41,166 nucleotides of DNA from Bacteroidota bacterium (GTDB taxonomy: Bacteria; Bacteroidota; Rhodothermia; Rhodothermales; JANQRZ01), in contig JBCDKT010000035.1 in assembly GCA_038746285.1 (NCBI GenBank), positions 1 through 41,166 of the forward strand, in the 5' to 3' direction. The notes under the pieces are model-generated. The model ran no database searches and was not told the DNA's origin. It saw nothing but the letters and a program-made list of their open reading frames with translations. The translations under genes and the position numbers were made by a program. Positions 4,601-21,709 of the stretch are shown piece by piece (the first letter of the stretch is position 1; each line of letters opens with the position of its first letter).

Positions 4601-5133
4601 CGATGGCGATCCAGCTCATCATCAACCGCGAACTCGGCCTCGCCAAGAACGAGAACCCGATCCAGGGGGCCTACATCATCGACGAACTGACCGACCTCGT
4701 CGAGGAGGCCGTGCTCGCGGAGTTCGAGCGGATCAACGACCGCGGCGGCGTGCTCGGCGCGATGGAGACGATGTACCAGCGCGGCAAAATCCAGGAAGAG
4801 TCGCTCTACTACGAGCACAAGAAGCACGCGGGCGATCTTCCGGTGATCGGCGTCAACACGTTCACCTCGGGCGACGGGGTGATGGAGGAGACCGAGACCG
4901 TCCCACTCATGCGCTCCACCGACGAGGAGAAGCAGCGCCAGATCGCCAACCTCCGCGCCTTCCAGGCCCGCAACGCCGAGCATGCCGCCGAGGCCCTCGA
5001 CCGCCTGCAGACCGCCGCGCGCGACGGCGGCAACGTCTTCGCCGAGCTGATGGAGACGGCCCAGGTCTGCTCGCTCGGCCAGATCACGACCGCCCTCTTC
5101 GAAGTCGGCGGCCAGTACCGCCGCAACATGTGA
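1660..5133 (+). CDS. icmF: Fused isobutyryl-CoA mutase IcmF (B12 domain, G-protein chaperone, mutase)
   Basis: Adenosylcobalamin-dependent interconversion of isobutyryl-CoA and n-butyryl-CoA; 1157 residues from the ATG at 1660. That start is chosen because the B12 domain begins just after it and the open frame upstream looks non-coding. Domain order is typical: N-terminal B12-binding domain (FDGHDAS, SSYQGGH), a MeaB-like GTPase (Walker [10 protein letters not shown] at about 221-229, [13 protein letters not shown]), then the TIM-barrel mutase. In the mutase, Phe611 (codon 3490, in RMFAGEG) and Gln805 (codon 4072, in QAQNTCIF) match the Phe/Gln pair of isobutyryl-CoA mutases; methylmalonyl-CoA mutase has Tyr/Arg. 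The linker between the B12 and G domains is long, low in complexity and carries a heptamer repeat (2110-2130). The final 46 bp are duplicated at 5664-5709, and the stop codon overlaps the next start (TGATG). Confidence 0.95.
2110..2130. repeat. Heptanucleotide repeat (CAGAGGG)3 inside icmF
   Basis: Three perfect copies of a 7-bp unit lie inside the coding sequence for the interdomain linker of IcmF. The total of 21 bp keeps the frame, but gain or loss of one unit would shift it. Confidence 0.85.
5088..5133 (+). repeat. 3' end of icmF, copy 1 of a flanking direct repeat
   Basis: The last 46 bp of icmF, including the stop codon. An imperfect copy (44 of 46 identical by eye) lies at 5664-5709. 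The two copies bracket the DUF4258 module like the left and right ends of an integrated element. Confidence 0.9.
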
Positions 5134-5456
5134 TGTCTGAGACGCTGGTGCGTATCCAAGCGCTCATCCGCAAACGAAATGTGCGCGTCTCCGCTCACGG
5201 ATACGACGAGTTGGCTGCCGACGATGTCCTCTTCCGGGACGTGCTGACGGGCATGCCCGATGCCGAAATCGTCGAAGACTATCCTGACTACTACAAGGGA
5301 CCGTCCGTGTTAGTGCTGGTCTATGACGACGCGCAGCAGCCGATTCATGTCGTGTGGGGCATCCCGAAAGGGGCCAGCGGACCCGCCGTGTTGGTGACGG
5401 CGTACCGTCCCGACCCCGCTCGGTGGACGGGCGACTTTAGACAGCGAAAGCCATGA
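5133..5456 (+). CDS. DUF4258 domain protein (toxin-like)
   Basis: A 107-residue protein starting at an ATG whose A is the last base of the icmF stop codon. It matches the DUF4258 pattern: an N-terminal helix, then VSAHGYDEL, DAEIVEDYPDYYKGP, a hydrophobic strand VLVLVYDD, PIHVVWGI and a C-terminal VLVTAYRPDPARW. DUF4258 proteins resemble the RelE/HigB-like fold and are often found in two-gene modules that look like toxin-antitoxin pairs. The next gene overlaps by four bases (ATGA), so the two are translationally coupled. A toxin role is inference from family and context. The module sits between two copies of the icmF 3' end and is co-directional with icmF, so it is probably transcribed by read-through. 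Confidence 0.8.
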   Translation: MSETLVRIQALIRKRNVRVSAHGYDELAADDVLFRDVLTGMPDAEIVEDYPDYYKGPSVLVLVYDDAQQPIHVVWGIPKGASGPAVLVTAYRPDPARWTGDFRQRKP

Positions 5457-5665
5457 AGCGGACGACGACGAAGCTGATTCATGAAGGGTCCTATGCCGCT
5501 GAGGTACAGGTAGAGCTTGACGTGACTGATGGCCCCTGGTCGCCTTACCTCGCTCTCGACGAGGCCGAGCGGCTCGACGCAGTCCGAGTCGCACTGCGAA
5601 GCGGGGACGTCCAGACGGCGTCGCAGTATGGACGAGTGTTCCGTCTCAGGCCTGTCGAGGCGTGA
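5453..5665 (+). CDS. Small antitoxin-like partner of the DUF4258 protein
   Basis: A 70-residue acidic protein that overlaps the DUF4258 gene by ATGA. Its sequence (HEGSYAAEVQVEL, GPWSPYLALDEAERLDAVR, ALRSGDVQTAS, RVFRLRPVEA) is of a small conserved type that I recall next to DUF4258 genes, with a beta-strand start and a helical middle. I propose it as the antitoxin or regulatory partner, by position and size only. Its stop codon TGA (5663-5665) overlaps the first two bases of the second icmF-end copy, so the insertion junction lies exactly at the end of this gene. Confidence 0.65.
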   Translation: MKRTTTKLIHEGSYAAEVQVELDVTDGPWSPYLALDEAERLDAVRVALRSGDVQTASQYGRVFRLRPVEA

Positions 5666-5709
5666 CCGCCCTCTTCGAGGTTGGCGGCCAGTACCGCCGC
5701 AACATGTGA
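5664..5709 (+). repeat. Detached second copy of the icmF 3' end
   Basis: 46 bp with two differences from 5088-5133. It retains the last codons and stop of icmF (VGGQYRRNM then stop) but is cut off from the gene by the 530-bp DUF4258 module. It is read here as the original downstream flank of icmF, displaced by the insertion. Confidence 0.9.
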
Positions 5710-5715
5710 GATTCG

Positions 5716-6276
5716 GTGGACCGAACGATTCGGATGGTGCGGGGGCAGACGCTGGCGGATTTCCGCCGGCTGCCCGAGGGCACGCTCGTAGAACTGATCG
5801 GCGGGCATCTCGTCTTTCGGCCAACGCCGCTCGTGCAGCACCGGCGGGTCGTCGGGCAACTGGTCTGGCTGCTGGGGGACTTCGTCGAGAGCCGAGACCT
5901 CGGCGTCGTGGTGAGTTGGATCGATACTCGGCTCTCGGACGCGGATGCTTTTCAGCCAGACCTCGTGTTTGTATCGCACGAGCGGCTCGGCATTCTCGGC
6001 GAGCAGGAGATCGAAGGCGCACCGGACCTCGTGGTGGAGGTCCTCTCGCCGAGCACGGGGTACTACGACCTTACGCAGAAGCGCGAGGCCTACGAACGCG
6101 CAGGCGTGCGCGAATACTGGATCGTAGACCCCGAACGGCAAACGGTGGAGGTGCTGACGCTGGACGAGGGGGCGTACCGGACGGCAGCGAAAGCAGAGCG
6201 AGCGGGGCGCATCGGGTCGGTGCTGCTCGAGGGCTTCGAGACCAGGCTGGAGCGGCTTTTTCTGGCGGTGGGCTGA
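5716..6276 (+). CDS. Uma2 family (DUF820) putative endonuclease
   Basis: 186 residues from a GTG at 5716; an ATG at 5734 in the same frame (MVRGQTLADF) is an equally good start. It shows the Uma2 layout: an N-terminal EL.GGHLVFRP segment, DAFQPDLVFVS, then APDLVVEVLSPST, and the C-terminal KREAYERAGVREYWIVDP. In the PD-(D/E)xK superfamily the PD, the E of VVEV and the later K/Y cluster form the metal site, and they appear intact. The biological role of these proteins is not established. The gene follows the detached icmF tail directly, so before the DUF4258 insertion it probably followed icmF. Confidence 0.85.
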   Translation: MDRTIRMVRGQTLADFRRLPEGTLVELIGGHLVFRPTPLVQHRRVVGQLVWLLGDFVESRDLGVVVSWIDTRLSDADAFQPDLVFVSHERLGILGEQEIEGAPDLVVEVLSPSTGYYDLTQKREAYERAGVREYWIVDPERQTVEVLTLDEGAYRTAAKAERAGRIGSVLLEGFETRLERLFLAVG

Positions 6277-6451
6277 GCGTGCGGCGTGCCGTCTCAGAAT
6301 GCGTCATTCTGCAAAAAATGAAGCAATGACGAAGGCCGTTGAAACAGGGGGGCGACAAAGCCGGTGGCTTATTGCCTTCCCCGGCGCTCTGCACGGACTT
6401 TGCGGGAGGACCCCTGACCAGCTACTCCTTCCTCCTTCCCGCCAACGACTC

Positions 6452-6928
6452 ATGACCTCTCCCGACCGTAAATCTTCTGCCTACGTCGAAGCCATCGTCC
6501 GCGAGGCTGTCGCCCGCGTGCTGCACTCGGTGCGCCGCCCGCTCCGTGCCGCGGGCTACGGCGGGCCGCGCACCCCGCTCGTGCTCTCCGACGTCCAGCA
6601 CGACTTCTTCGCGGGCTACCTCTACGGTGCCCTCCAGCGCCTGCTCGAACTCGGTGAACTGAGCGAGGAGGAAGACATCGGCCGGGCCACGCACCGGCTC
6701 TACTGCGGCCTCTTCGGGTTCGAGGACAACGAGTACGGCCCCTGGCACGTCTGGGTCGTCCGTGAGGGGCTCCATAACCTCCAGCGCCCGCACGTCTTCC
6801 TCGGCTACTGCACCGGACGCAACGACGTCGTCAACCAGCTTCGGCACGGCGGCGCGCACAACGCCCTCGCCGATGCCCTCCAGCACCTCGACAACAACGA
6901 CGGCGAACCCCTGTTCGGCATCGGCTAG
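6452..6928 (+). CDS. Conserved hypothetical protein
   Basis: 158 residues. The ATG at 6452 is preferred over the upstream in-frame ATG at 6299, because the upstream part looks like intergenic sequence and the usual pyrimidine-rich leader (CTACTCCTTCCTCCTTCCC) precedes 6452. I do not recognise the family. Visible features are a basic helical start, a central FFAGYLYGALQRLLELGELSEEEDIGRA helix pair, several conserved-looking aromatic and Cys residues (YCGLFGF, GPWHVWVV, FLGYCTGR), and a polar end with HGGAHNALADALQHL. There is no signal peptide or membrane segment, so it is probably cytosolic. Confidence 0.6.
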   Translation: MTSPDRKSSAYVEAIVREAVARVLHSVRRPLRAAGYGGPRTPLVLSDVQHDFFAGYLYGALQRLLELGELSEEEDIGRATHRLYCGLFGFEDNEYGPWHVWVVREGLHNLQRPHVFLGYCTGRNDVVNQLRHGGAHNALADALQHLDNNDGEPLFGIG

Positions 6929-6952
6929 ACAGCAACGGATCACGCGTACGCG

Positions 6953-8761
6953 TTGGGCGTAGCGGCATTCCCTTCTGCCGCTGCGCCCTTGCTGTTTCCC
7001 CCCGATTCTGTCCTGCTCGACGCCGGCTGGCCCGACGCCTCCGGCCAGGCGTCCGGTGCGCTCCTCTTCACCCGGCCGGAGCGCGTCCTCACGGCGTCCC
7101 GCCTGAGCGAGATCCCGGGCCTGCTTGGGGAACTGGACCGCGTGGCGGCAGCAGGACGGGTAGCGGTGGGCTACCTCGCCTACGAGGCGGGCTACGCCTT
7201 CGAGACGATTGCGGCGCTCAAACCGCACGCCGGGCTGCTGGCGTGGTTCGGGGTCTACCGAGCACCCGAGCGGCTGAGCGAAGAGGACCTGGAGGCGCTG
7301 CTGAGCCAGGCCGGTGCGCACCGCCTCACCGAGACACAGTTCGCCATCGACCGGGCGACCTACCGGGACCGCATCGAGCACATCCGCCATCACATCCGCG
7401 AGGGGGACGTCTACCAGATCAATTTCACCGCGCCGTTCCGGTTCGGGGTCGAGGGCGATCCGGTCGGGCTCTACCGGGCGCTGCGCGAGCGGCAGCGCGT
7501 CGGCTTCGGGGCGCTCCTCCGCGCGGGCGACGACTGGGTGCTCTCGCGCTCGCCTGAGCTTTTTTTCCGGCGCGAGGGCGAGCGCGTCGCAACGCGGCCG
7601 ATGAAGGGCACGGTCCGTCGCGGTGCCACCGCGCGCCTGGACGAAGCCCAGGCCGGCTGGCTCACCGCCGACGAGAAAAACCGCGCCGAGAACCTGATGA
7701 TCGTCGACCTCCTGCGCAACGACCTTGCGGTCGTCGCCGAGCCGGGGTCCGTGACCGTGCCTGCGCTGTTCGAGGCCGAGCGCTACGACACGCTCTGGCA
7801 GATGACCTCGACCGTCGAGGCGAAGCTGCGCCCCAGCACCGGGACCGCTGACCTCGTGCGAGCGCTCTTCCCGTGCGGCTCGGTGACGGGCGCGCCGAAG
7901 ATCCGGGCGATGCAGCTCATCCACGAACTCGAGGCCGCGCCGCGCGGGGTCTACTGCGGAGCCATCGGGCTCGTCGCGCCCGGCCGGGCAGTCTTCAACG
8001 TGCCGATCCGCACCCTCGCGCTGCGCGGCGGGCAGGGGACGATGGGCATCGGCAGCGGCGTCGTGTGGGACTCCGACCCCGAGGCGGAGTACGACGAGTG
8101 CCTCCTCAAAGCCCGCTTCCTGACCGAGCCGCGGGCGGACTTCGCGCTCCTCGAAACCGTCCGGTGGGAGGGAGGCTACGCGCTCCTGGACCTTCACCTC
8201 GGCCGGCTTCGCCGCGCCGCCGCCTACTTCGGCTACCCCTTCGACGAGACCACGCTGCGCGCCCGGCTCGCCAGTCTTGCATTCGAGACCGAGGCCCCGC
8301 ACCGCGTTCGCCTCACGCTCGACCGGCACGGGTGCACCGAGGCTGAGGCGACGCCGCTCGCCGAGGTGCCGCTCGTGCTCCGCCGCGCCGTCGTCTACCC
8401 CGAGCCCGCCGACTCCACCGACCCGTTTCTTCGCCACAAGACAACGCACCGGGGGTTCTACGACCGCGCACTCGCGTGGGCCGAGCCGCGCGGCTTCGAC
8501 GAGGCGATGCTCGTCAACGAGCGCGGCGAACTGACGGAGGGCACGCGCACCAACCTCTTCGTCCGCGAGGGCGGCCGGCTGTGGACGCCGCCCCTCGCGT
8601 CCGGCGGCCTGGACGGCGTCTACCGCGCCCACCGCCTCGCCACCGACCCTGAGGCCGGGGAGCGCGTGCTGCGCCCGGCGGACCTCGTGCGCGCCGACGC
8701 CGTATATCTCGCCAACGCACTTCGTGGTATGCAGGCCGTCACGGTTAGCCTCGATGCGTGA
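6953..8761 (+). CDS. pabB: Fused aminodeoxychorismate synthase component I and lyase (PabB-PabC)
   Basis: A bifunctional enzyme for p-aminobenzoate in folate synthesis: amination of chorismate, then release of pyruvate. About 602 residues from the TTG at 6953; a TTG at 6989 would also serve and there is no ATG, so the start is uncertain. The N-terminal two thirds is a chorismate-binding domain with RPMKGT (Lys about 218), the Lys that marks PabB as opposed to anthranilate synthase. CGSVTGAPK, GAIG, IRT and GSGVVWDSDPEAEY follow. The C-terminal third (from about 398) is a class IV aminotransferase-like PabC with HKTTHR (PLP Lys), FDEAMLVNERGELTEGTRTNLF and a final LANALRGMQAV. The glutaminase subunit PabA is not in the window. 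Confidence 0.92.
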   Translation: MGVAAFPSAAAPLLFPPDSVLLDAGWPDASGQASGALLFTRPERVLTASRLSEIPGLLGELDRVAAAGRVAVGYLAYEAGYAFETIAALKPHAGLLAWFGVYRAPERLSEEDLEALLSQAGAHRLTETQFAIDRATYRDRIEHIRHHIREGDVYQINFTAPFRFGVEGDPVGLYRALRERQRVGFGALLRAGDDWVLSRSPELFFRREGERVATRPMKGTVRRGATARLDEAQAGWLTADEKNRAENLMIVDLLRNDLAVVAEPGSVTVPALFEAERYDTLWQMTSTVEAKLRPSTGTADLVRALFPCGSVTGAPKIRAMQLIHELEAAPRGVYCGAIGLVAPGRAVFNVPIRTLALRGGQGTMGIGSGVVWDSDPEAEYDECLLKARFLTEPRADFALLETVRWEGGYALLDLHLGRLRRAAAYFGYPFDETTLRARLASLAFETEAPHRVRLTLDRHGCTEAEATPLAEVPLVLRRAVVYPEPADSTDPFLRHKTTHRGFYDRALAWAEPRGFDEAMLVNERGELTEGTRTNLFVREGGRLWTPPLASGGLDGVYRAHRLATDPEAGERVLRPADLVRADAVYLANALRGMQAVTVSLDA

Positions 8762-8843
8762 CAGGGCTGACAGCGCAGCCCTCTCCATTCCCCCCACGCC
8801 CTTCCAACTACGAGTGCGGAGCACTCACAACCCCTCTCCCGTC

Positions 8844-9467
8844 ATGGCAGGCATCCTCGACATACTCGGCCCCGCGCTCAGCGGCGGCACCCTCCAGCAA
8901 CTCAGCAGCGCCGTCGGCACCGACGACCAGACCACGCAGCGCGCCGCGATGGCCGCGCTCCCGGTGATCCTCGGCGCGATGAACCGCAACACGAACGACC
9001 CGCAGCAGGCGCAGTCGCTCGCGAGCGCCCTCGAGCGCGACCACGACGGTGGCATCCTCGACAACCTCGGCGGCTTCCTCGGCGGCCTCACTGGGGCGGG
9101 GGCCCCCTCCGACGCGGCTGGCGTCAATGCCCGCGCGGCCAACGGAACCGGCATCCTCGGCCACATCTTCGGCAACCAGCTGTCCCAGGTGCAGCAGGGC
9201 GTCGGCAAGGCGACCGGGCTCGACAGCGGGCAGGTGATGAAAATGATGGTGGCCCTCGCACCGATGGTGATGGGCTACCTCGGGCGCCAGAAGCGCCAGC
9301 AGAACCTGAACGCGGGCGGCCTCTCGGACCTCCTGGGCCGCGAAGCCTCGAACGCCCGCTCCGCCGCGCCGAACGATCTGATGGGCATGCTCGGCGGCCT
9401 CCTCGACCGCGACGGCGACGGCAGCCCGATCGACGATGTGCTCGGCGGCCTGCTCGGCAAGCGGTGA
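8844..9467 (+). CDS. DUF937 domain protein
   Basis: 207 residues from the ATG at 8844, which follows a short pyrimidine-rich leader (CCCCTCTCCCGTC). It has the features of DUF937: an N-terminal helical segment (MAGILDILGPALSGGTLQQL, then SSAVGTDDQTTQRAAMAALPVILGAMNRNT), a glycine-rich GGILDNLGGFLGG loop, the conserved ILGHIFGNQ block, and a helical KMMVALAPMVMGYLGRQK segment. The C-terminal part ends with a DRDGDGSPIDDVLGGLLG segment resembling a calcium-binding loop. The function of the family is unknown. It lies in a co-directional series but 94 bp before the next gene, with a hairpin between. Confidence 0.85.
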   Translation: MAGILDILGPALSGGTLQQLSSAVGTDDQTTQRAAMAALPVILGAMNRNTNDPQQAQSLASALERDHDGGILDNLGGFLGGLTGAGAPSDAAGVNARAANGTGILGHIFGNQLSQVQQGVGKATGLDSGQVMKMMVALAPMVMGYLGRQKRQQNLNAGGLSDLLGREASNARSAAPNDLMGMLGGLLDRDGDGSPIDDVLGGLLGKR

Positions 9468-9491
9468 GGCCTGGAGAAAAGGAAGAGGACC

Positions 9492-9543
9492 GAGAGGAGA
9501 AAGAAGAGAGAGGTGTTCCCTGCTATCTTCTCTTTCTCCTCTC
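9492..9543. repeat. Purine/pyrimidine inverted repeat (long imperfect hairpin)
   Basis: The left arm at 9492-9509 (GAGAGGAGAAAGAAGAGA) pairs with the right arm at 9526-9543 (16 of 18). It lies between the DUF937 stop and the ppk2 start. It could end or attenuate transcription, but it lacks a clean T-run after the stem. Confidence 0.65.
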
Positions 9544-9561
9544 TCTTTTCCCCTTCGCCTC

Positions 9562-10392
9562 ATGACCATCGACCTCGACCGCTACCGCATCGTCCCCGGC
9601 GAGACCCCGCGTCTCGACGAGCGCGACACCGCCGACACGCAGGGGCTCTCCGAAGACCAGGACGAGGACCGCGTCGACGACCAAGTCGAGGACAACCTCG
9701 ACCGGATCGACGACCTCCAGGAGCGGCTCTACGCCGAGAGCGAGCAGTCGCTCCTGATCGTGCTCCAGGCGATGGATGGGGCAGGCAAGGACTCGACGAT
9801 CCGCAGCGTCTTCGGGCCGCTCAACCCGCAGGGCGTCCGCGTGGCGAGCTTCAAAGCGCCGACGAAAGAGGAACTCGCCCACGACTTCCTGTGGCGTGTC
9901 CACCGGCAGGCTCCCGAGGCCGGGCACATCCGCATCTTCAACCGCTCGCACTACGAGGACGTGCTCGTCGTCCGCGTCCACGAGTGGGCCGACGCCGAGA
10001 CCATCGAGCGGCGCTACGACCACATCAACCACTTCGAGGCGCTTCTCGCCGACCGGGGCACATGCATCCTCAAACTGATGCTCCACGTCTCGCCGGAGTA
10101 CCAGCTCGAACGGATGCGCCGCCGCCTCCGCAAGCCCGACAAGCACTGGAAGTTCAACCCCGAGGACCTCGAAGAGCGCAAGCTCTGGGACGACTACCAA
10201 GACGCCTTCGAAGTCGCCCTTGCGCGCTGCTCGACCGAGGCTGCGCCGTGGTACGTCATCCCCGCTGAGGAGCGGTGGTTCCGCGACCTCGTGGTGAGCC
10301 AACTCGTGCTGGAGACGCTGGAGGACATGGATCCCCAGTACCCCGAGCCGTCGTTCGACCCGGCCGATTTTCCACCCGACGAGATCAGCTAG
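9562..10392 (+). CDS. ppk2: Polyphosphate kinase 2 family protein
   Basis: 276 residues from the ATG at 9562, close to the usual length of a single-domain PPK2. It transfers phosphate between polyphosphate and nucleotides in the cytosol. Walker A is AMDGAGKDST (about 70-79), with the lid region and Walker B-like IFNRSHYEDVLVVRVH (about 125-140), then CILKLMLHVSPEYQLERMRRRL and the typical KHWKFNPEDLEERKLWDDYQDAFE and APWYVIPAEERWFRD blocks. These are the diagnostic PPK2 signatures. Whether it prefers AMP, ADP or GDP cannot be decided by eye. The leader contains a TATCTT word and a CT-rich tract directly before the start, and the gene is convergent with the sulfatase. Confidence 0.93.
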   Translation: MTIDLDRYRIVPGETPRLDERDTADTQGLSEDQDEDRVDDQVEDNLDRIDDLQERLYAESEQSLLIVLQAMDGAGKDSTIRSVFGPLNPQGVRVASFKAPTKEELAHDFLWRVHRQAPEAGHIRIFNRSHYEDVLVVRVHEWADAETIERRYDHINHFEALLADRGTCILKLMLHVSPEYQLERMRRRLRKPDKHWKFNPEDLEERKLWDDYQDAFEVALARCSTEAAPWYVIPAEERWFRDLVVSQLVLETLEDMDPQYPEPSFDPADFPPDEIS

Positions 10393-10443
10393 TTGGCTCC
10401 GCTGTGAGGCGGGGAGCACACCGCAGCAGCCGTGCGCAGCGGA

Positions 10444-13710: not shown

Positions 13711-14658
13711 GTGACGAACGACGACGCGCTGAAGCACGTCCTGGGAATCGAGTTCGGTAGCGCGATCTGCTACTCGGGCTACCGCGAGAACCAATCGCCG
13801 GTGACCCAGGCCTACCCGTCCTACGACGAGGTCTGCGAGGACCTGCGCCTGCTCGACCCCAACTGGCAGTACCTCCGCCTCTACGACTGCAGCCGCCACG
13901 CCGAACTCGTCCTCGACGCCGTCCGCGCCGAGGGGTTCGACTTCAAGGTGATGCTCGGGGCCGACATGCGCGCCGAGGTCAGCAACCCGAAGTGCCCGTG
14001 GGGCGCGACCTACCCCGAGGCCCAACTCGCCGCCAACCGGCAGGCCAACAGCGAGGAGATCGACCGGCTGATCGCGCTCGCCAACCGCTACCCCGAGATT
14101 GTCTTCTCGGTGTCGATCGGCAACGAGGCATCGGTCGAGTGGACGGACCACCTCGTGCCGGTCGATCGGCTCGTCGCGTACGCGCGCCGGGTCAAGGCCG
14201 GGGCCGCGCAGCCGGTGACGTTTTGCGAGAACTACGTCCCGTGGACCGGCACGCTCGAACCGCTCGCCGCCGAGCTCGACTTCCTCTCGCTCCACACCTA
14301 CCCGGTCTGGGAGTACCAGACGATTGAGCGGGCGCTCGACTACACGAAGCAGAACTACCGCAGCGTCGCCGACCACTACCCGGACACACCCGTCATTATC
14401 ACCGAAGCGGGCTGGACGACCGGCTCCAACGGGCGCGGCATCGACCCGTGGAATGCCTCGCAGGAGCTCCAGGCGACCTACTGCCGCCAACTCACCGACT
14501 GGAGCCGCGAGCACCGGATTCTGACCTTCGTCTTCGAAGCCTTCGACGAGCCCTGGAAAGGCTCCCCCGACCCGATGGAGCCCGAGAAGCACTGGGGCCT
14601 CTTCACCGTTGACCGCCGGCCGAAGCGGGCGATGCAGGGGCTTTACGCACGTCAATAA
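13711..14658 (+). CDS. GH17-like glycoside hydrolase, copy 2
   Basis: 315 residues from the GTG at 13711, eight bases after copy 1. It contains SAICYSGYRENQSP, YLRLYDCSRHA, the acid/base candidate in VSIGNEASVEW, LSLHTYPVWEYQ, the nucleophile candidate in IITEAGWTTGSNG, and EAFDEPWKG with a final HWGLF. It resembles copy 1 block by block and is a diverged tandem duplicate. No signal peptide is seen. The last 56 bp (LFTVDRRPKRAMQGLYARQ and stop) reappear in diverged form at 15171-15226, on the far side of the HicBA module, which shows that the module was inserted directly after this gene. Confidence 0.85.
   Translation: MTNDDALKHVLGIEFGSAICYSGYRENQSPVTQAYPSYDEVCEDLRLLDPNWQYLRLYDCSRHAELVLDAVRAEGFDFKVMLGADMRAEVSNPKCPWGATYPEAQLAANRQANSEEIDRLIALANRYPEIVFSVSIGNEASVEWTDHLVPVDRLVAYARRVKAGAAQPVTFCENYVPWTGTLEPLAAELDFLSLHTYPVWEYQTIERALDYTKQNYRSVADHYPDTPVIITEAGWTTGSNGRGIDPWNASQELQATYCRQLTDWSREHRILTFVFEAFDEPWKGSPDPMEPEKHWGLFTVDRRPKRAMQGLYARQ
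14603..14658 (+). repeat. 3' end of GH17 copy 2, flanking repeat copy 1
   Basis: The terminal 56 bp of the gene. About 44 of 56 positions match 15171-15226 without gaps, and the encoded peptide is conserved (TVDRRPKRAMQGLYA versus TVDRWPKRAMQSLYA). Confidence 0.85.
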
Positions 14659-14702: not shown

Positions 14703-14942
14703 GTGATAGCGCAAACGCGACGAACTAAGCCGGTGCTTGAGATGACGATGGAGATAGAACGAGAGGACGATGGACGGTGGCTTGCCGAGGTGATGGAGTT
14801 GCCCGGTGTCATGGCCTACGGCTCGTCCCGCGAGGAGGCGGTCGCTCACGCACAGGCTCTCGCGCTTCGGGTCATTGCCGACCGCCTCGATCACGGCGAG
14901 GACGTTCCTGACATTACGCCGCTGTTCGCGGAAGCGGCATGA
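14703..14942 (+). CDS. hicB: HicB family antitoxin
   Basis: 79 residues from the GTG at 14703. A start at the ATG at 14742 would cut into the first strand. It has the HicB partial RNase-H-like fold: MTMEIEREDDGRWLAEVMELPGVMAYGSSREEAVAHAQALALRVIADRL (14742-14888), with the conserved DDGRW, LPGV and G.(S/T).EEA positions. There is no C-terminal DNA-binding domain, so this is the short form. It is followed by HicA with an ATGA overlap. Gene order is antitoxin first, the reverse of E. coli hicAB but common elsewhere. It would neutralise HicA and could autoregulate through the complex. Confidence 0.88.
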   Translation: MIAQTRRTKPVLEMTMEIEREDDGRWLAEVMELPGVMAYGSSREEAVAHAQALALRVIADRLDHGEDVPDITPLFAEAA

Positions 14943-15154
14943 GCCGCTTTGGCTCTGTCAAAGCTCGAAAGCTCTTGCGTGCCCTCCTCAAGATCGGCTG
15001 GCGTATCAAGCGCGAAGGCCGAGGGTCGCATAGGATTCTGGAGCGCGAAGGGTGGCCCGACATCGTCTTCGCGTTCCACGATGGAGACGAGGTCGGGCCG
15101 AAGATGCTCTCCCGTGTGGCGAAGCGAACGGGTTTGAAGCCGTCAGATCTCTGA
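14939..15154 (+). CDS. hicA: HicA family mRNA interferase toxin
   Basis: 71 residues, ATGA overlap with hicB. It is a HicA/YcfA-like small dsRBD-fold protein: KARKLLRALLKIGWRIKREGRGSHRILEREG (14961-15053), with the catalytic His in GSH, then VFAFHDGDEVGPKMLSRVAKRTGLKPSDL (15066-15152). The Gly-Ser-His motif and the GPKMLSRVAKRTGL helix, which corresponds to the usual G.L..I.K..GL, are intact, so an active mRNA-cleaving toxin is predicted. The stop codon lies 16 bp before the detached GH17 tail. Confidence 0.88.
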   Translation: MSRFGSVKARKLLRALLKIGWRIKREGRGSHRILEREGWPDIVFAFHDGDEVGPKMLSRVAKRTGLKPSDL

Positions 15155-15170: not shown

Positions 15171-15226
15171 TCACCGTCGACCGCTGGCCCAAGCGGGCGA
15201 TGCAGAGTCTCTACGCGCAGCGTTAG
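15171..15226 (+). repeat. Detached diverged copy of the GH17 3' end
   Basis: 56 bp that still encode TVDRWPKRAMQSLYAQR and a stop, but with no upstream gene. It is about 79% identical to 14603-14658. With the icmF and kinase cases it marks the right boundary of an insertion after an open-reading-frame 3' end. Confidence 0.85.
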
Positions 15227-15304: not shown

Positions 15305-15341
15305 ATTCTACAGCCCGAGCACTACGTGAGAGTGTAGTAAC

Positions 15342-15695: not shown

Positions 15696-15830
15696 AGGTC
15701 AGGAGAGGTGTGGAGAGTGGAGGCCGTAGAACCCGTGATTGAGCGGACTTTCTACCCTACCCCTCTGTGATGCAGAGGGTGACACAGAGCATCGAGTTTA
15801 CGACACGAGCGCCTGGGCGCGCACGGTCGC

Positions 15831-16095
15831 TCAGGCGGAACGCTGTGCCAGCGCCAGGGCGCCTTCTACGGGGCGGCGCTCGGGGCGGACGATGCGCCAG
15901 CGGGGGAGGTGGCGCAGGAACGCCTCGGCGAGGCATTCGCGGTAGTAGGCCTCCTGCGTCATCCCGCCGGTGAGGACGAGGCGCGGGGTAAGTGCATCGT
16001 TGGCCTGGGCTACGAGCCACGCGGCGCGCTGGGCGAGCGCGTTGGCCTGCGTCTTGATGATCCGGGTCCCCACCCAGTCGTGGTTCTCCCCGGCG
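15831..16095 (-). pseudogene. Detached 3' fragment of a BadF-type kinase gene
   Basis: This stretch is about 93% identical to the end of the intact kinase gene (20810-21074) and encodes the same C-terminus: AGENHDWVGTRIIKTQANAL, then WLVAQAN, LVLTGGMTQEAYYREC, RHLPRWRIVRPERRPVEGAL, ending AQRSA and a stop instead of AQRAK. The upstream part is missing; beyond 16095 the sequence is unrelated. It is the displaced downstream copy of the kinase 3' end and marks the left boundary of the accessory island. Confidence 0.9.
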
Positions 16096-16161
16096 TCGGC
16101 CTCGAAGCGCGGGCTGTACCGCCGTCTTGCAAGGGCTCGCCTTGTCGGGCCGCTCAGCCGA

Positions 16162-16974
16162 CTACCACCCTGGGGGCTCCGTCCACACCGATACGTCGTC
16201 GAGGAAGACCTCGTTTGAGGCCTCATTATTTCCGTTGGCCGTGATCCCGACCTGCATCCGGGTGTACACCGCGTCGGCCCTGGGTAGCGTGACGCCTGTG
16301 CCGTCCAAGACGAGGTCGTCGTCCTGGTACACCCTCAACCGTCCGCCTGGACCGCTGTCGAGCGTCAGGTCGATCCGGACCCGGAGCCACCGCTCGGTTT
16401 CGAGCGTCGCCGCTGGCGCGCGGAAGGTCGCATCGCGGCACCACTTCCCCAGGTCCGACGCGAACGACCTCCCCAGCGGTCCGCTGAGGTACAGCCGACG
16501 CCCGGGGGCGGGGCAGACCGCCGCTGTCCCCTCGGCGGGGCACGACGACTCGTCCGTGCACGTCTCCGGTGCCTCGAGGTCCCACAGGAAGACGTCCCGC
16601 GTGGCCCCGCTCTCGGCCATCCACACCCAGAACTCGACCCACACCCGGTCGCCGTCTCGGAGGCGCAGGCGCTCGAGAACGAGGTCCGCCTTCGACGCTG
16701 TCTCCCCGTCGTACGGTTCGGCCACTAGGCGCACCGACTGACGTCCCGAGCGGCTGCGCGCCGCCGTGAGTTCCACGCGGTTCGAGCCGGAGGTGCGCTG
16801 AAGGTTCGTCCACCGGGAGCCGTCGGAGGCAAAAAGGTCTTCGATCCGCTCGGCCGACTCGAAGTCCTCCGTAAACACCCCGTCGATCACGGGGAAGGGC
16901 TCCGGCGGGGGCACGGTCGGGTCGCAGCCGAGTGTACCTAGAGCGAGCAGGAGTACGGGGAGGCTGCGGCCCAT
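16162..16974 (-). CDS. Lipoprotein with predicted jelly-roll (polysaccharide-lyase-like) domain
   Basis: 270 residues. It starts with a signal peptide and lipobox (LLLALGTLGC, Cys at about 17) followed by DPTVPPPEP, so it is a predicted outer-membrane or surface lipoprotein. The mature part alternates beta-strands (FTEDFESAERIEDLF, NRVELTAARSRSGRQSVRLV, DRVWVEFWVWM, GRLRVYQDDDLVLDG, MQVGITANG and a final VFLDDVSVW). This resembles the concanavalin-A-like fold of the heparin-lyase/alginate-lyase type and of LamG-like carbohydrate-binding proteins. I see no certain catalytic set, so a binding role is equally possible. Four Cys residues in the central insertion may form disulphides. It lies in the island bounded by the kinase 3'-end copies. 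Confidence 0.6.
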   Translation of the reverse strand: MGRSLPVLLLALGTLGCDPTVPPPEPFPVIDGVFTEDFESAERIEDLFASDGSRWTNLQRTSGSNRVELTAARSRSGRQSVRLVAEPYDGETASKADLVLERLRLRDGDRVWVEFWVWMAESGATRDVFLWDLEAPETCTDESSCPAEGTAAVCPAPGRRLYLSGPLGRSFASDLGKWCRDATFRAPAATLETERWLRVRIDLTLDSGPGGRLRVYQDDDLVLDGTGVTLPRADAVYTRMQVGITANGNNEASNEVFLDDVSVWTEPPGW

Positions 16975-17055
16975 GGGGAGGCGGGGTCGAGAAGTGTAAA
17001 GGATGTCGCCGGTCAGAACTGCAAAGAAACTACCCGGCTCCTACAGGCAAGGTAA

Positions 17056-18180
17056 CTACTGCTCGTGGCCGAACACGAAGTGGTCGAGGAACGCCCGGGC
17101 GTACGGGGACCGCTCGGCAGCCGCCCCGTCGAGCGGGTTGTCCCAGTGGACCCCCTCCCCGTTCGCGAGCACGACGAGGGCGAGCCCGCGCGACGGCACA
17201 CGCAGCAGCAGCGACGACGCGCCGGCCTCGTCGTCCCACCCGGCGTGCCACACGAGCCGCTCGCCCCGGTAGTCCTGAACGTACCAGCCGTACGCGTACG
17301 GGAGCGGCCGTCCCTCCCGGTCGAGCGGCGGCGTGGTCAGCTTCTCCATCACGGCGGGCGACGCGAGCGACCCGGCGTCGAGTGCCTCGGCATACCTCGC
17401 GAGGTCGAGCGCGGTCGAGACGACGCCCGCGCCGCCCGCCAGCGCCCGCCCCGGTTGGCGGCGCTGGACGTACTCGCCGTCCACGATCCCGTACCCCCGC
17501 GCCATGTCGTACACCACGTCCATCTTCGAGCGGTCCCACTGGCTCGCCACCGTCCGCGTCATGCCCGCCGGGCCGAGCACGCGCGCTTGGACTTGGCGCG
17601 CGAGTTCGTTCATGCCGCCCTCGATCTCCGTCGAGTCGTTCACGGTCCATTCGAGGTACCGCGAGAGACGAGAGAACATGAGGGGGTTGTAGAAGAAGGC
17701 GTGGCCGAGGTCCCCGTTCGACGTGTGGGTGAGGACAGTCCCGACGGTGATCGGGGCGGCGCAGTCAAGGCCGCGCTTGAACACGAGCGGGGACCGCGAG
17801 AGCCACTCGCAGAACCCGTCGAAACCGGGCACCTCCGCCATCCGGGCGTCGAGGTCCACGACGCCGTCGGCTTCGAGGCCGAGGAACGTGAGGCCGATGA
17901 ACGTTTTCGTCACCGACGCGACCCAGAACGGGGTGTCGGGCGTGACGGGGACCTCTTCGTCCGTGTCGGCGACGCCGAACCCGTCGGCCCAGACGGGCTC
18001 GCCCCTGCGGACGACGGCCACGGCAAGCCCCGGCGTCGGATGGGCGCGCCAGACCGAGTCGAGGGTTGGTCGGAAGGAGTCGAGCGACGGCGGGCGTTCG
18101 AGGCCCTGCGCCTGTGCGACGCGGAGGGCGAGGAGCGACAGCGCGACCAAGCCGAGGCGCCGCACCAGAGGGTTTTGCAT
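17056..18180 (-). CDS. Secreted serine hydrolase, beta-lactamase class C family
   Basis: 374 residues with a Sec signal peptide (LGLVALSLLALRVAQAQ). It is a member of the AmpC/esterase/D-Ala-D-Ala-peptidase-like family (PF00144). Motif 1 is S89-V-T-K92 (WVASVTKTF), and the C-terminal HAG motif is in VWHAGWDDEAG. The Tyr motif is probably in FFYNPLMFS, where the usual Y-x-N is compressed. Long loops (EVPGFDGFCEWLSR, VFKRGLDCA) carry a Cys pair. These proteins act on periplasmic or extracellular esters or peptides, and the substrate cannot be deduced. The gene is not obviously coupled to its neighbours (81 bp and 50 bp gaps) but is co-directional with the whole island. Confidence 0.85.
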   Translation of the reverse strand: MQNPLVRRLGLVALSLLALRVAQAQGLERPPSLDSFRPTLDSVWRAHPTPGLAVAVVRRGEPVWADGFGVADTDEEVPVTPDTPFWVASVTKTFIGLTFLGLEADGVVDLDARMAEVPGFDGFCEWLSRSPLVFKRGLDCAAPITVGTVLTHTSNGDLGHAFFYNPLMFSRLSRYLEWTVNDSTEIEGGMNELARQVQARVLGPAGMTRTVASQWDRSKMDVVYDMARGYGIVDGEYVQRRQPGRALAGGAGVVSTALDLARYAEALDAGSLASPAVMEKLTTPPLDREGRPLPYAYGWYVQDYRGERLVWHAGWDDEAGASSLLLRVPSRGLALVVLANGEGVHWDNPLDGAAAERSPYARAFLDHFVFGHEQ

Positions 18181-18230
18181 GAGCGAGGAGAGAGTGCGGG
18201 CTAACGGAGTGGCGCTTCAGCCGCGCGGTG

Positions 18231-18587
18231 CTAGTGGTGCATTTCTAGTACGACAAGCGAGGCCGCGCCGGACCACCGCCAGCGCGTTGGGTAGTAGAAG
18301 TAGCTGTCCGGGAAGTCACCGAGGTGGTGGCCGTCCTCCGAGGGGTCGGCGAGGTGCGGGCGGACCTCCGACTTCCAGAACTCGAATGTCTCCGATCCCG
18401 GAACCCACCGGAGCGGAGCGCCCACGTTGGCGACGACAAACTGAACGGAGCCGAGGCGGAGCAACTCGCGCAACGTCGCTTCGCTCAGATCTGCCTCTCG
18501 CTCCGTCGCTACGACCTCACCCGCCTCGGTCCACACCTCTGGTAGCGGAGTGCGAGTGACCTGCCGGACGAAGCCAGTCTCAGGCAT
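18231..18587 (-). CDS. Hypothetical protein
   Basis: 118 residues from the ATG at 18587; the open frame upstream of that ATG does not look protein-like. I do not recognise the family. It is mixed alpha/beta: TGFVRQVTRTPLPEVWTEAG, EADLSEATLRELLRLGSVQFVVANVGAPLRWV, FEFWKSEVRPHLAD, then YFYYPTRWRWSGAASLVVLEMHH. The middle segment (LRELLRLGSVQFVVANVG) looks like a helix followed by a buried strand. No signal peptide. It belongs to the accessory island and has normal (high) GC content, unlike the GTPase operon beside it. Confidence 0.5.
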   Translation of the reverse strand: MPETGFVRQVTRTPLPEVWTEAGEVVATEREADLSEATLRELLRLGSVQFVVANVGAPLRWVPGSETFEFWKSEVRPHLADPSEDGHHLGDFPDSYFYYPTRWRWSGAASLVVLEMHH

Positions 18588-19136
18588 GGCGAGAGCGCGG
18601 TAGAACAGAAGGCCGCTCAACCGCGAAGGGCTGAGGGCACAATGACAGAACGAAGCGAAAGTAGCGCCGACGCTCGGACGAGCCAAGAACGCTGGCGCCC
18701 TTCGTCGGCTTGCAGCGGCGGGACGCTTCCAAGAAGGTACGTGCTGCCCTATATTGCTGCTACCCCTGCGTGGCCCGCCGCCGCAAGCCCCACGCATAAC
18801 TGACGCCACAGCTCACGCTTGGCGTCGCCCATCTCGGGAATGGGAAGCGGCGGTGTGCATCGACGAAACGCGTCTGGGATGCGGGCTACGGCCTCCAGCT
18901 GCAGCCCGCCTCACTCGTTGGAGTGAGCGAGCCCGTTGAGGGGTTTGGTCGCCCGTAGGCACCGGGAAGGTGGCCTGCCGGGTACCCTGCATCGACGCAG
19001 AGTGAGCGGCCACGAGAGCGGGGGCGGAGTTGAAGGCGTGCGCGAAGTCTATTGACTGGGGCCAGGCCGTATGCCTGCAGCCCCTTCTCCTACTTGTGTC
19101 AGCCCTACATCAACTTCTTTGAGGGGTTGTGCCGCG
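18588..19136. other. Gene-free stretch inside the island
   Basis: About 550 bp. It holds the 74-bp repeat and a small perfect hairpin at about 18911-18928 (CTCACTC, GTTG, GAGTGAG). I see no convincing open frame. Confidence 0.5.
18648..18721. repeat. 74-bp dispersed intergenic repeat, copy 2
   Basis: Matches 15231-15304 without gaps at about 74% identity. A GCCGACG/CGTCGGC stem closes most of the element. It lies upstream of the 118-residue hypothetical gene. Confidence 0.6.
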
Positions 19137-19751
19137 CTAGTGGAAGCGTGAGGATTGATTAGATAATACCTCAATCATGGACTCAAAATCGGCAAGTCTA
19201 AGCGCCAGTTCAATTCGGGTAGATTCTTTTATGTCAGAATGCTCAATGCTCTGAGAAACCGATCTTGCTAAATTTATCAGGGGGCCTCTCAGGTTCCTGA
19301 ATCTGGTTGCTACTGCTTCGGCTGAGGAGTCGGACAGGGCAGGCCGTCTCGGGTCTCCATCTAGGAATCTTGAGAGACGATCTATTCCAGAGGCCATCCA
19401 CTGAGTGTACTCCTTTAAGAGAGGAATAGCTTGGACTGGGCTGAACACCGATGACTTTCGCTCAATGCGATTCAGAAGGCCCCTAAGTTCAATGAGACGC
19501 ACGCGAGCTTCTAGCCAAGCAGAACTAGAAGGGCCAACCTCATACCTGTCGAGCACATCAGATGCATAGCGCTGTAGCATATCGTACAGCTCATACATGC
19601 TCCTGAATTCCATTCCGTTCTGGAGCAAGTCGGCAGAATCAGAAGCAGCAGACTCGTCTAGGCTAGACCTTAGCTTGTCGTTATACTCCTTCAGTAGAGA
19701 TGACAAACGGTCAAGCTCTTTTCTGGCAAATACGTTTTCCGGCTCGTTCAT
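19137..19751 (-). CDS. Helical partner protein of the GTPase
   Basis: 204 residues, almost all predicted alpha-helix with heptad-like spacing (LDRLSSLLKEYNDKL, EFRSMYELYDMLQRYASDVLDRYE, ARVRLIELRGLLNRIE, YTQWMASGIDRLSRFL, FRNLRGPLINLARSVSQSIEHSDI, LRLADFESMIEVLSNQS). I do not recognise the family. It starts in a 4-bp ATGA overlap with the upstream GTPase gene, so the two are made together and probably form a complex. The base composition (near 50% GC) matches the GTPase gene and is far below the flanking sequence, so the pair was acquired together. No membrane segment is present. Confidence 0.75.
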   Translation of the reverse strand: MNEPENVFARKELDRLSSLLKEYNDKLRSSLDESAASDSADLLQNGMEFRSMYELYDMLQRYASDVLDRYEVGPSSSAWLEARVRLIELRGLLNRIERKSSVFSPVQAIPLLKEYTQWMASGIDRLSRFLDGDPRRPALSDSSAEAVATRFRNLRGPLINLARSVSQSIEHSDIKESTRIELALRLADFESMIEVLSNQSSRFH

Positions 19752-20599
19752 GCTTCCCAGTCTTTAAGTGCAATTAGCGTCTCCCAAAAGCGCTGCAGCG
19801 AGTGCGCTTGGGCGGCCTGATCGTATCCAGCCACTGTCGGGGCGAGCACTTCACCCTTTCCGGTCGTAAAATTATAGATTACCAGTGACACTGGAGTCAT
19901 TTCGTGTCTAAACATTTTGCCACCAAGCGCGCTCGATATGTCGACCACTATTTCTCCAATCGGACCTTCCTCGTAGAAATGAACGACCTCCCTCGACCTG
20001 TCCGACCAAAGATCTTGCTTGGTGACCAAGCTCAGCAGCCAGATTTTCTTGTCACATGACTTGATGAAAGGAGCCAGTCGCTTATAAACGCTGACCTCGT
20101 CGGCCCTACTGCTTTCTAGATACTGGGACATGAATTCAGATTCGTCTCCTGTGTAGAGTCTGTTTTCTTTGTAGCTGTTTCCTAGGCTATGGTAGCCATA
20201 AGCAGTCAGCACAACGATACCCCTATACTCGCCACCTGCGATTCCGGCTTCGAGGTCCGACCAAGTGGAGTCACGCCTGTGTCGCTGGCCTGGAGGGATG
20301 ACAAGCTCTACGTTCTCATCGTCGGCAAGAGGCACTCTTTCAACCCCGAGACTTTCCAGGTACTCAGTTTGAGTATCGAGAAGGGTGTCATGGTCGCCGC
20401 TTAGCAGCCTAGCAGTAGTGGATTTTCCGACGCCACCAGGGCCAATAATTAGCACGCCTCGCTCAACTCCTTCTGCATCCTTCTGAGGGCGAGACAACCA
20501 CTCTCTGATCTTGCCGACCTGCCCAACCAGCCAATCCCTGTTCTTCCAAAGGAAGCTACCAAGCTCAGTCCACACGTTTTTGGCAGGTTCGTCAGTCAT
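19748..20599 (-). CDS. Predicted P-loop GTPase of unknown role
   Basis: 283 residues. Walker A is GPGGVGKST (53-61). A switch-II-like PPGQRHRRDSTW follows (103-113 region), in which the usual Asp of DxxG is replaced (VIPPGQ). The base-recognition motif is TKQD (193-196), in place of NKxD. The N-terminus (VWTELGSFLWKNRDWLVGQVGKIREWL) is amphipathic. The arrangement suggests a Ras/Arf/MglA-like small GTPase fold with extensions; nucleotide specificity is inferred from TKQD only. The low GC content, the tight pairing with a helical protein and the location between direct repeats suggest a mobile accessory system, possibly anti-phage or signalling. That role is speculative. Confidence 0.75.
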   Translation of the reverse strand: MTDEPAKNVWTELGSFLWKNRDWLVGQVGKIREWLSRPQKDAEGVERGVLIIGPGGVGKSTTARLLSGDHDTLLDTQTEYLESLGVERVPLADDENVELVIPPGQRHRRDSTWSDLEAGIAGGEYRGIVVLTAYGYHSLGNSYKENRLYTGDESEFMSQYLESSRADEVSVYKRLAPFIKSCDKKIWLLSLVTKQDLWSDRSREVVHFYEEGPIGEIVVDISSALGGKMFRHEMTPVSLVIYNFTTGKGEVLAPTVAGYDQAAQAHSLQRFWETLIALKDWEA

Positions 20600-20731
20600 G
20601 AGGCGCTGCCCCGATCAGTTTGGGAGGTAAATCTACCACCGCTGCTTGACCCAGACCCACACGAACCCGAGGGCGCGGCATAACTACTACTTCACGAGCG
20701 CGGGCGGCTCGGTAAGGGTCGGAATCGGCCC

Positions 20732-20737
20732 ATTATA
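20732..20737 (-). promoter_or_regulatory. TATAAT -10 box for the GTPase operon
   Basis: A perfect TATAAT on the minus strand in a GC-rich context, about 130 bp before the GTPase start. The -35 region is not clear. A 10-bp inverted repeat (CGCGCTCGCT and its complement) lies just upstream and could be an operator or the terminator of the kinase gene. Confidence 0.45.
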
Positions 20738-20809
20738 CGGCGCGCTCGCTTGCGAAACGTGCCGCTCAGGCGCTTAGCGAGCGCGGAGCTGCATAAGAAC
20801 CGGTTCGAG

Positions 20810-21709
20810 CTACTTCGCACGCTGCGCCAGCGCCAGGGCACCCTCGACGGGGCGGCGCTCGGGGCGGACGATGCGCCAGCGGGGGAGGTGGCGCAGGAAC
20901 GCCTCGGCGAGGCACTCGCGGTAGTACGCCTCCTGCGTCATCCCGCCGGTGAGGACGAGGCGCGGCGCAAGCTCGCCCTCGGCCTGGGTCACGAGCCACG
21001 CGGCGCGCTGCGCGAGCGCGTTGGCCTGCGTCTTGATGATCCGGGTCCCCACCCAGTCGTGGTTCTCCCCGGCCGCGACCGCGAGCGGGGCGAGCGTCTG
21101 GACCGCGAGGTCGCCGCCGTAGACGAACCGGATGAGGTCCTCCGCCGAGGCGAGGCCGTGCTCGTCGGCGAGGAGGTGGCGGAGCGCGGTCGGCTCGCCC
21201 CCGTCGAAGTCGGCGGCGACGGCGGCGAGCACGGCGGTGCCGAGGGCGGTGCCGCTGCCCTCGTCGCCGATGCGCGCGCCCCAGCCCCCGGCCCGGAGCA
21301 GCGCTCCGTCTTCGGTGCGCCCCAGCACGAGCGACCCGGTCCCGACGAGCGCCACGAGGCCACTCTCCCCCCCGAACGCGGCTTCGAGCGCGATCACCCC
21401 GTCGTGCTCAACCACGAGCGGCACGTCCGCGATCTCGGGAAGCCGAGCGCGAAGCCGAGCGGCGAGGTCGGCCTGCTCGTGCGCGCGCCCGGCTCCGGCC
21501 ACGCCGAGGCAGACCCCGCCGACGGCCTCGTGGTCGAGCGCGGCGAGGGCCGTGCGGAGCAGACCGGCCAGCGCGTCGCTGCTCTGCGCGGCTCCGTCGC
21601 GCTGAAGGTTCACCCCGGCCCCACGCCCCCCGGCCTCGGCCCGACCTGCGCGGGCCAGCCACTCGGTCTTCGTCCCGCCCGCGTCGATGCCGATGTAGAG
21701 AGGAGACAC
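20810..21709 (-). CDS. BadF/BadG/BcrA-type sugar kinase (N-acetylglucosamine kinase-like)
   Basis: 299 residues from a GTG start. It is an ASKHA-fold kinase: GIDAGGTKTEWLA (phosphate 1), LVVEHDGVIALEAAFGG, LVALVGTGSLVLG (phosphate 2), GGWGARIGDEGSG, and LVLTGGMTQEAYY near the end (adenosine site). This is the pattern of N-acetylglucosamine/glucosamine kinases of the BadF family, so ATP-dependent phosphorylation of an amino sugar in the cytosol is likely. The last ~265 bp occur again at 15831-16095, on the far side of a 4.7-kb island. The penicillin-acylase gene lies upstream on the same strand, 188 bp away. Confidence 0.88.
   Translation of the reverse strand: MSPLYIGIDAGGTKTEWLARAGRAEAGGRGAGVNLQRDGAAQSSDALAGLLRTALAALDHEAVGGVCLGVAGAGRAHEQADLAARLRARLPEIADVPLVVEHDGVIALEAAFGGESGLVALVGTGSLVLGRTEDGALLRAGGWGARIGDEGSGTALGTAVLAAVAADFDGGEPTALRHLLADEHGLASAEDLIRFVYGGDLAVQTLAPLAVAAGENHDWVGTRIIKTQANALAQRAAWLVTQAEGELAPRLVLTGGMTQEAYYRECLAEAFLRHLPRWRIVRPERRPVEGALALAQRAK

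Follow-up and report, generated by a model that had tools for sequence, protein, structure and literature searches.

Duplicated gene 3' ends around toxin-antitoxin and other accessory genes in a Rhodothermales genome as probable scars of recombination with foreign gene ends

Accessory genes accompanied by displaced or duplicated DNA have been described in several bacterial systems. In rhs loci, an incoming gene end together with its following genes recombines within the conserved gene and the old end is shunted downstream, serial events leading to strings of fragments; the published model makes use of a circular intermediate (PMC2935791). For Escherichia coli conjugation, 56 of 60 recombinants were reported to carry partial duplications of the lacZ end, 14 of them sequenced, with lengths of 109-950 bp. 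The authors' account of these is a single crossover with a circle short of part of the lacZ end, probably after linearization, degradation and recircularization, and they state that homology-facilitated illegitimate recombination (HFIR) usually deletes recipient DNA (PMC3240628). One-sided homology has tentatively been put forward for immunity arrays of type VI secretion systems as well (PMC5361080). Restriction-modification systems are described to insert with long and variable target duplications in the order of 100 bp (cited in PMC3031569 and PMC3874152), and in Microcystis a ParE/ParD-like module has been reported to lie behind the MaOC1 gene, flanked by direct repeats of 152 bp (PMC7935541). 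Here, we describe a 41,166-nucleotide stretch of DNA (hereafter, the window), which is the entire contig C35 of a Rhodothermales genome (G000; 4.08 Mb in 134 contigs). In this window, the 3' ends of three ordinary genes, icmF, a GH17 gene and a BadF/BadG-type kinase gene, recur as detached copies on the far side of accessory genes, probably as scars of recombination with foreign homologous gene ends that carried this cargo along.

According to the original prediction, accessory blocks had been placed independently behind three intact genes, each followed by a second copy of the host gene's 3' end. A comparison of repeats confirmed all three duplications at the places claimed, with the host genes intact, and independent insertions are supported. 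The features concerned are the following:

1492..5133, plus strand: icmF, fused isobutyryl-CoA mutase, intact host gene (NCBIfam equivalog NF045497, 1789 bits)
5133..5456, plus strand: DUF4258 protein, putative toxin (Pfam PF14076, E 7e-15, over cut-off)
5453..5665, plus strand: open reading frame (ORF) of 70 amino acids, putative antitoxin by its position
5664..5709, plus strand: detached icmF 3' end with stop codon kept, 44/46 identical
5716..6276, plus strand: Uma2 family gene, accessory, beyond the detached icmF copy (Pfam PF05685, E 1e-35)
13711..14658, plus strand: second GH17 gene, intact host gene (Pfam PF00332, E 4e-8)
14742..14942, plus strand: HicB-like antitoxin (Pfam HicB_lk_antitox, E 6e-4, below cut-off)
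14939..15154, plus strand: HicA toxin (Pfam PF07927, E 6e-13, over cut-off)
15171..15226, plus strand: detached GH17 3' end with different last codons and its own stop TAG, 87% identical over 15171-15216
15831..16105, minus strand: detached kinase 3' end, RSA-stop instead of RAK-stop in the intact gene, 245/266 identical
16162..20599, minus strand: cargo on the kinase side, five called genes (Pfam and gene calls)
20810..21709, minus strand: BadF/BadG-type kinase, intact host gene (Pfam PF01869, E 9e-23)

At icmF, the last 46 bp of the gene (5088-5133) recur at 5664-5709. The insert is coding from edge to edge because both outer reading frames overlap the icmF copies: the ATG of the DUF4258 gene overlaps the icmF stop codon (TGATG), and the TGA of the 70-amino-acid ORF, for which family searches gave no match, overlaps the first bases of the detached end. 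The GH17 duplication is the least secure of the three; it comprises 14603-14648 and 15171-15216, 46 bp in length, and continues more weakly to the stop codons at 14658 and 15226. Its insert is the HicB-like/HicA pair with a leader of 83 bp. In the kinase case, 20819-21084 recur at 15840-16105 on the minus strand, and the insert of 4.7 kb comprises genes with a weak polysaccharide-lyase match, a beta-lactamase family match, no recognized family, a weak bDLD3 match and a weak AAA match.

To which extent such duplications recur was assessed in a sample of 841 kb out of the 4.08 Mb, consisting of the window and the first 40 kb of contigs C1-C20. Repeats in direct orientation, 30-600 bp long and within 12 kb of each other, were collected and the matches then read by eye; a first filter, demanding a repeat end at most 20 bases from a gene end, favors repeats which stop near a stop codon. 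After reading, the sample holds eleven 3'-end events, three in the window and eight outside, as well as one 5'-end event at murJ. Those outside the window are:

recG 3' end: 39 bp; cargo, a GIY-YIG gene
sbcC 3' end, twice: 68 and 64 bp; apparently serial
carB 3' end: 85 bp; cargo, a DUF2442 gene
5'-nucleotidase-like gene 3' end: 84 bp; cargo, two lipoprotein-like genes
maoC 3' end: 31 bp; cargo, a ParE-like pair
ppc-like gene 3' end: 28 bp; cargo, a DUF5615 pair
gene ending LPQR, 3' end: 47 bp; cargo, a ParE pair
murJ 5' end: 94 bp, starting exactly at the ATG; cargo, a ParE/RelB-like pair

The ppc-like and LPQR events originate from the toxin-bracketing test described below and not from the repeat scan. 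Genes termed ppc, maoC, sbcC, recG, carB, murJ, MATE and 5'-nucleotidase are named as we recognized them from protein sequence, without a family search, and are presumably these genes. Single sites have apparently been used repeatedly, the sbcC end being present three times. Four more 3'-end events were found in relatives, namely at PPK2 in G001, at MATE and icmF in G002 and at one gene in G012, where the cargo is again a DUF4258 gene, now with an MqsA-like partner. The icmF end of G002 was hit independently, and the cargo there is another one and lies on the opposite strand. Two properties claimed for the window hold at all three of its sites and only partly beyond: the cargo runs in the direction of the host gene there, but in the opposite one at 5'-nucleotidase, maoC, ppc, the second sbcC event and G002 icmF, and in mixed directions in two others; likewise, the detached copy keeps its stop codon in the window, while 4 of 15 detached copies overall have lost it.

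Automatic counting in the G000 sample gave 10 outward matches at 3' ends, 3 outward at 5' ends and 1 inward at a 3' end with an identity of at least 75%, and 9, 2 and 0, respectively, at a stricter setting (at least 79% and at most 400 bp). One of the 9 automatic 3' matches (C8:1-65/205-269) was set aside as unclear, and one of the 2 supposed 5' matches, at C1:31817, marks in fact the 3' end of a plus-strand gene that had escaped gene calling. As a control free of the filter, 60-base pieces of 544 called genes of at least 150 amino acids were searched for non-paralogous copies within 12 kb, yielding 11 for 3' ends, 10 for 5' ends and 0 and 1 for two interior pieces. Hence, gene ends stand out against gene interiors, while the raw numbers hardly differ between 3' and 5' ends. 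An excess of 3' ends (11 to 1) emerges only after reading, several 5' matches being dispersed repeats or domains and one being the 3' end of the LPQR gene. What remained of the filter-free lists after reading was icmF, GH17, maoC, recG and sbcC twice for 3' ends, and murJ for 5' ends; the kinase, carB and 5'-nucleotidase repeats exceed the 60-base probe and are presumed to be among the matches filed as paralogs. In these 841 kb, the sample used for the genome-wide search that the original prediction had suggested, duplicated 3' ends do recur and ends prevail over interiors, though there is no marked raw surplus of 3' over 5' ends.

In relatives, the automatic criteria gave 2 outward 3' matches in 432 kb of G001 (1 real), 3 in 385 kb of G002 (2 real), 1 in 100 kb of G012 and 1, taken unread, in 213 kb of G013. 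None was found in 300 kb of G004 or 100 kb of G025, with one unread 5' match each, nor in 100 kb of G009. Taken together, G004, G009, G012, G013, G025 and E. coli gave 4 outward matches at 3' ends versus 3 at 5' ends. With automatic criteria, the event rate is higher in G000 (5 in 0.80 Mb versus 5 in 2.03 Mb), though without significance (p 0.16). Several repeats were rejected as paralogous domains (C2, C8, C9:9151, C12, C15:29085, C16:1390, C18, G001 C20a, x128, G002 C1, C31) or as intergenic or dispersed (C1:21316, C6, C9:32820, C11, G001 C20b, x129:12240 and 19516), and others were set aside as unclear (C8:1-65, C13, x129:1102).

The original prediction had proposed a process that uses the 3' ends of genes for attachment. 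If a site-specific recombinase worked in trans on promoterless cassettes, this could explain the 11 to 1 ratio in the G000 sample after reading, the serial insertion at sbcC and the close abutment of cargo coding ends to the junction (0 bases at icmF, 1 at recG, 0 at LPQR, 4 at carB). Other junctions, however, are looser (GH17 16, G012 14 bases), the ratio is about even before reading (11 and 10) and by automatic counting in other genomes and E. coli (4 and 3), and survival bias can account for the 3' excess. Furthermore, the repeats belong to different genes, vary from 28 to 266 bp, share no core when compared by eye and include a 5' case. No recombinase was recognized in a Pfam scan of the window insert proteins (inserts outside the window were scanned in part only). 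Such a recombinase is therefore very improbable, and with the often allele-like copies described below this part of the prediction is not supported; a use of gene ends rather than interiors is supported, with the preference for 3' ends appearing only after reading.

The direction of one event can be read at recG. In G001, a member of the same genus which is about 12% diverged in the host genes studied, a single recG end without cargo is present, ending GTGGGCTAG. The detached recG copy of G000 and the DNA beyond it match this place over 747 bp at 86%, whereas the intact G000 recG ends GTAGGGTGA and is followed by the GIY-YIG cargo. Since the match with G001 runs through the detached copy, it is this copy that represents the resident end at recG, and the intact gene now carries another one. 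An empty site, as had been anticipated, does thus exist in a relative, in clean form only for recG; in G032, the distance between the aligned PPK2 and kinase ends is 105 bp. Short gene fragments near their parent gene are often decayed tandem duplicates, and a duplication of the gene with its neighbors, whose second copy lost all but its end, could on this general knowledge have produced such structures. Here, however, the second copy is the extreme gene end in every curated case, and the single recG end of G001 has the downstream DNA directly attached to it with no cargo, which makes tandem duplication extremely improbable.

A further property concerns the point where the two copies cease to resemble each other. 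With the E. coli case counted in, similarity is lost between 10 bases before and 1 base after the stop codon in 15 of the 16 cases at 3' ends (0 for LPQR); the exception is G012, where it runs 16 bases past the stop. As the first filter favors such repeats, all 41 unfiltered repeats spaced at least 100 bp apart in four genomes were inspected. G012 apart, only C9:36372-36501 combines a called gene end with much DNA past the stop (53 bases inside, 77 beyond), and it was rejected as a gene-end event, with partial copies on four other contigs marking it as a dispersed repeat. In 7 of 15 pairs, the copies have two different ends and both keep a stop (recG, MATE, G002 icmF, maoC, kinase, GH17, ppc). 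The differing ends are FARVG with TGA or TAG, PPKE/PPKA, MQSTG/MQGTD, QRAK/QRSA and YARQ/YAQR, while MATE and G002 icmF differ by the stop codon. In the other 8 pairs, either the two ends agree (icmF, carB, LPQR, G012) or the stop is missing from the detached copy (sbcC twice, 5'-nucleotidase, PPK2). Different ends with a stop in both, together with similarity ending at the stop codon, make the copies look like two alleles from different lineages.

These data bear on insertion within the genome accompanied by a target duplication of 30-270 bp, generated by a wide staggered break or by template switching, with selection leaving those events that fall at gene 3' ends. Long target duplications of restriction-modification systems were reportedly described by Nobusato in 2000 and by Furuta in 2010. 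Gross anatomy and length range of the present sites agree with the long, variable duplications of about 100 bp as cited in PMC3031569 and PMC3874152, the cargo is in part addictive as in those systems, most detached copies look neutrally decayed, and both flanking direct repeats of resident target and an empty site, at recG, were found. A target duplication should, however, often run past the stop codon, which is clearly so only in G012 (16 bases) among 16 cases, and neutral decay would not have maintained a stop in the 7 of 15 pairs whose ends differ in codons or stops. A contiguous target copy from one genome does not describe the set as a whole, though it could describe G012. Altogether, this origin is unlikely. 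The limit at the stop codon and the differing, working ends favor recombination between orthologous gene ends, as in-genome target duplication predicts neither.

The events are thus probably of a known kind, each site being a scar left where DNA was gained horizontally without replacing any. The incoming DNA, derived from a related lineage, would have consisted of a conserved gene end followed by cargo and would have recombined inside the resident gene end, either by single crossover of a trimmed and recircularized molecule or in linear form, joined by homology on one side and illegitimately on the other. The outcome would be a whole resident gene with the cargo behind it and, on the far side, the displaced gene end joined to resident downstream DNA. 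The partial duplication of the homologous end predicted by a single crossover is present at the sites, and homologous single crossover of circular DNA, already considered in the original prediction, is retained as one option. The anatomy would likewise fit one homologous and one illegitimate junction. The donor lineage, the circular or linear nature of the intermediate and the retention of toxin-antitoxin cargo discussed below are inferred here, unlike the duplications, their recurrence, the recG empty site, the allele-like difference of many copies and the similarity ending at the limit of the coding sequence, which are observed.

Several findings weigh against this explanation. No donor molecule was found. 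At some sites the homology amounts to 28-46 bp, which is near the reported lower limit for RecA (PMC2884548). HFIR, as described, usually deletes resident DNA, and no such loss is seen at recG, where the DNA after the detached copy aligns with G001 in one piece from the gene end on. At the kinase gene, it is the intact end together with about 140 bp beyond it that resembles G001, so that the resident-looking copy differs between sites. Along the intact genes, no foreign tract stands out as a drop in identity to G001 except at PPK2, with 73% in the last 75 bp. Raw differences by codon position (22, 21, 47; p 7e-4, 12 cases) had suggested foreign ends everywhere, which was not upheld after polarizing the changes with relatives: over 11 cases, changes amount to 16, 22 and 30 in detached and 3, 3 and 12 in intact copies, with 9 differences unresolved. 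A coding signature is clear only in the detached copies of the kinase (1, 3, 10) and carB (2, 3, 9). The other nine detached copies are about even (13, 16, 11), which neutral decay after in-genome duplication would fit too; neutral decay after insertion is compatible with all models.

As for the cargo, a family search of the sampled stretches outside the window identified 14 toxins (ParE 5, HicA 1, PIN 4, DUF5615 4). Three of these are bracketed by duplicated gene ends (ParE on C1 and C17, DUF5615 on C15). Among the remaining small called genes, the figure is 4 of 255 (Fisher p 0.0035). Any bracket is found for 4 of 14 toxins versus 6 of 255 small genes (p 0.0008); the numbers are small, the gene caller is crude, and the test sees inserts reaching at most 1.6 kb to one side. 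One of the four bracketed control genes, the maoC cargo, is itself ParE-like. An earlier count of 7/17 was dropped, as it included modules met because they were bracketed. Toxin genes hence look over-represented as cargo. Perhaps they are retained through addiction, excision between the direct repeats being punished. Among 16 DUF4258 loci of the order, that of the window included, gene-end-like bracketing repeats occur at L078, L082 and L086, with a weak one at L088. Uma2 genes outside the window were bracketed in 0 of 3 cases.

One might go further and regard the small toxin-antitoxin operons of this lineage as minimal coding cassettes, read from the host transcript, for which a host gene end serves as portable homology arm; this appears decidedly unlikely. 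The one sign of such a travelling handle is a copy of the recG end that lies on a different contig from recG itself (C6:25956-25992, 37 bp, 92%, E 2.6e-9). It keeps the frame of recG and stands about 60 bp upstream of an accessory ORF (26055-26705, plus strand). Among distant copies of gene pieces in the sample, however, 21 belong to 3' ends versus 51 to 5' ends and 35 and 20 to interiors. With no 3' excess there, a travelling handle is at most rare, which makes the cassette reading slightly less probable.

Compared with the described systems, the present sites share the displacement of an old end by an incoming one with rhs loci as modeled, including serial use, but the displaced rhs tip is a variable domain, while here ends of ordinary genes are displaced which differ only by allele. 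With single crossover and HFIR, as reported, they share the product of gene, cargo and partial second copy of the homologous end; the lacZ duplications differ in their length of 109-950 bp and in deriving from introduced DNA. Restriction-modification systems, as portrayed in the citing papers, are likewise addictive modules between direct repeats of resident DNA of about 100 bp; here, type II toxin-antitoxin pairs and assorted small genes are found instead, and the repeats mostly end at the stop codon and are often allelic. In the Microcystis report, a toxin-antitoxin pair also lies just after a gene with direct repeats on both sides, whereas there the repeats are located 14 bp past the stop, outside the gene, and contain inverted repeats. 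This was the only close case among the papers listed in our literature search for toxin-antitoxin modules with such duplications, a search which does not exclude further published ones.

The same scan of 400 kb of E. coli K-12 gave two 3' matches and one 5' match; matches of a transposase family and of tRNA genes were dropped. The end of kdpE recurs 4.3 kb away as pseudogene ybfI, with speFL, speF and potE in between. Over 144 bp, 130 are identical, the 14 differences fall 3, 3 and 8 by codon position, and similarity ends at the stop codon, which is kept. In anatomy this matches the G000 sites, although a metabolic operon forms the cargo here. Among the papers listed in a literature search on this case, none contained ybfI. 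Of 5426 E. coli genomes, 4997 have one locus that covers 80% or more of the stretch. One isolate (L232) lacks speF-potE there and has kdpE beside pgm, which is either an empty site or a deletion between direct repeats. The original view that no named system fits can thus not be held, given the published long target duplications, rhs C-terminal displacement and lacZ-end duplications and this alike case in E. coli.

Some further observations were made in the course of this work. The Uma2 family has ten matches in G000, of which one adjoins the detached icmF end; in G001, another gene occupies the interval corresponding to 5716..6276. Within the kinase cargo, 19137-20599 (minus strand) form a two-gene module with an AAA-like match (E 0.005) and, in the other protein, weak similarity to a bacterial death-like domain (E 0.003); neither reaches the curated cut-off. 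It is possibly a defense pair of an unrecognized kind; a PADLOC search of the module gave no match. The 8-base unit CTTCCGCC is repeated head to tail at 35519-35614 (nine 32-base matches that overlap), close to where a predicted ORF on the minus strand (34400-35605) starts; judging from the repeat, this gene could be phase-variable. In G001, a 95 bp repeat with inverted ends (L129 12240-12334 and 13949-14043, 95% identical) stands directly after a gene end at two places, with shorter pieces in G001 and G002, and looks like a miniature mobile element. Finally, a PIN gene and a GIY-YIG-like gene lie between copies of non-coding repeats (L094 1316-1520/2241-2444; L068 16260-16347/16682-16767), which begin GTCATCCCGAGCGGAG and TGTCATTGCGAGGAGC and have partial copies in relatives; another GIY-YIG-like gene adjoins the first one.

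The pattern found here is real, recurrent and countable, and represents a known kind of event. The apparently new aspects are the role of ordinary conserved genes as handles and the preference for toxin-antitoxin pairs as cargo, although the idea that these pairs have evolved to travel by gene-end handles is quite improbable. How toxin-antitoxin modules lacking a recombinase move between chromosomes is an unsettled question, and a displaced gene end beside a module provides a countable scar by which acquisitions could be oriented and counted in any genome. Such a scar would also allow one to test if cargo lying between direct repeats persists longer when it is addictive than when it is neutral. 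The mechanism may, moreover, account for short 'C-terminal fragment' pseudogenes such as ybfI.

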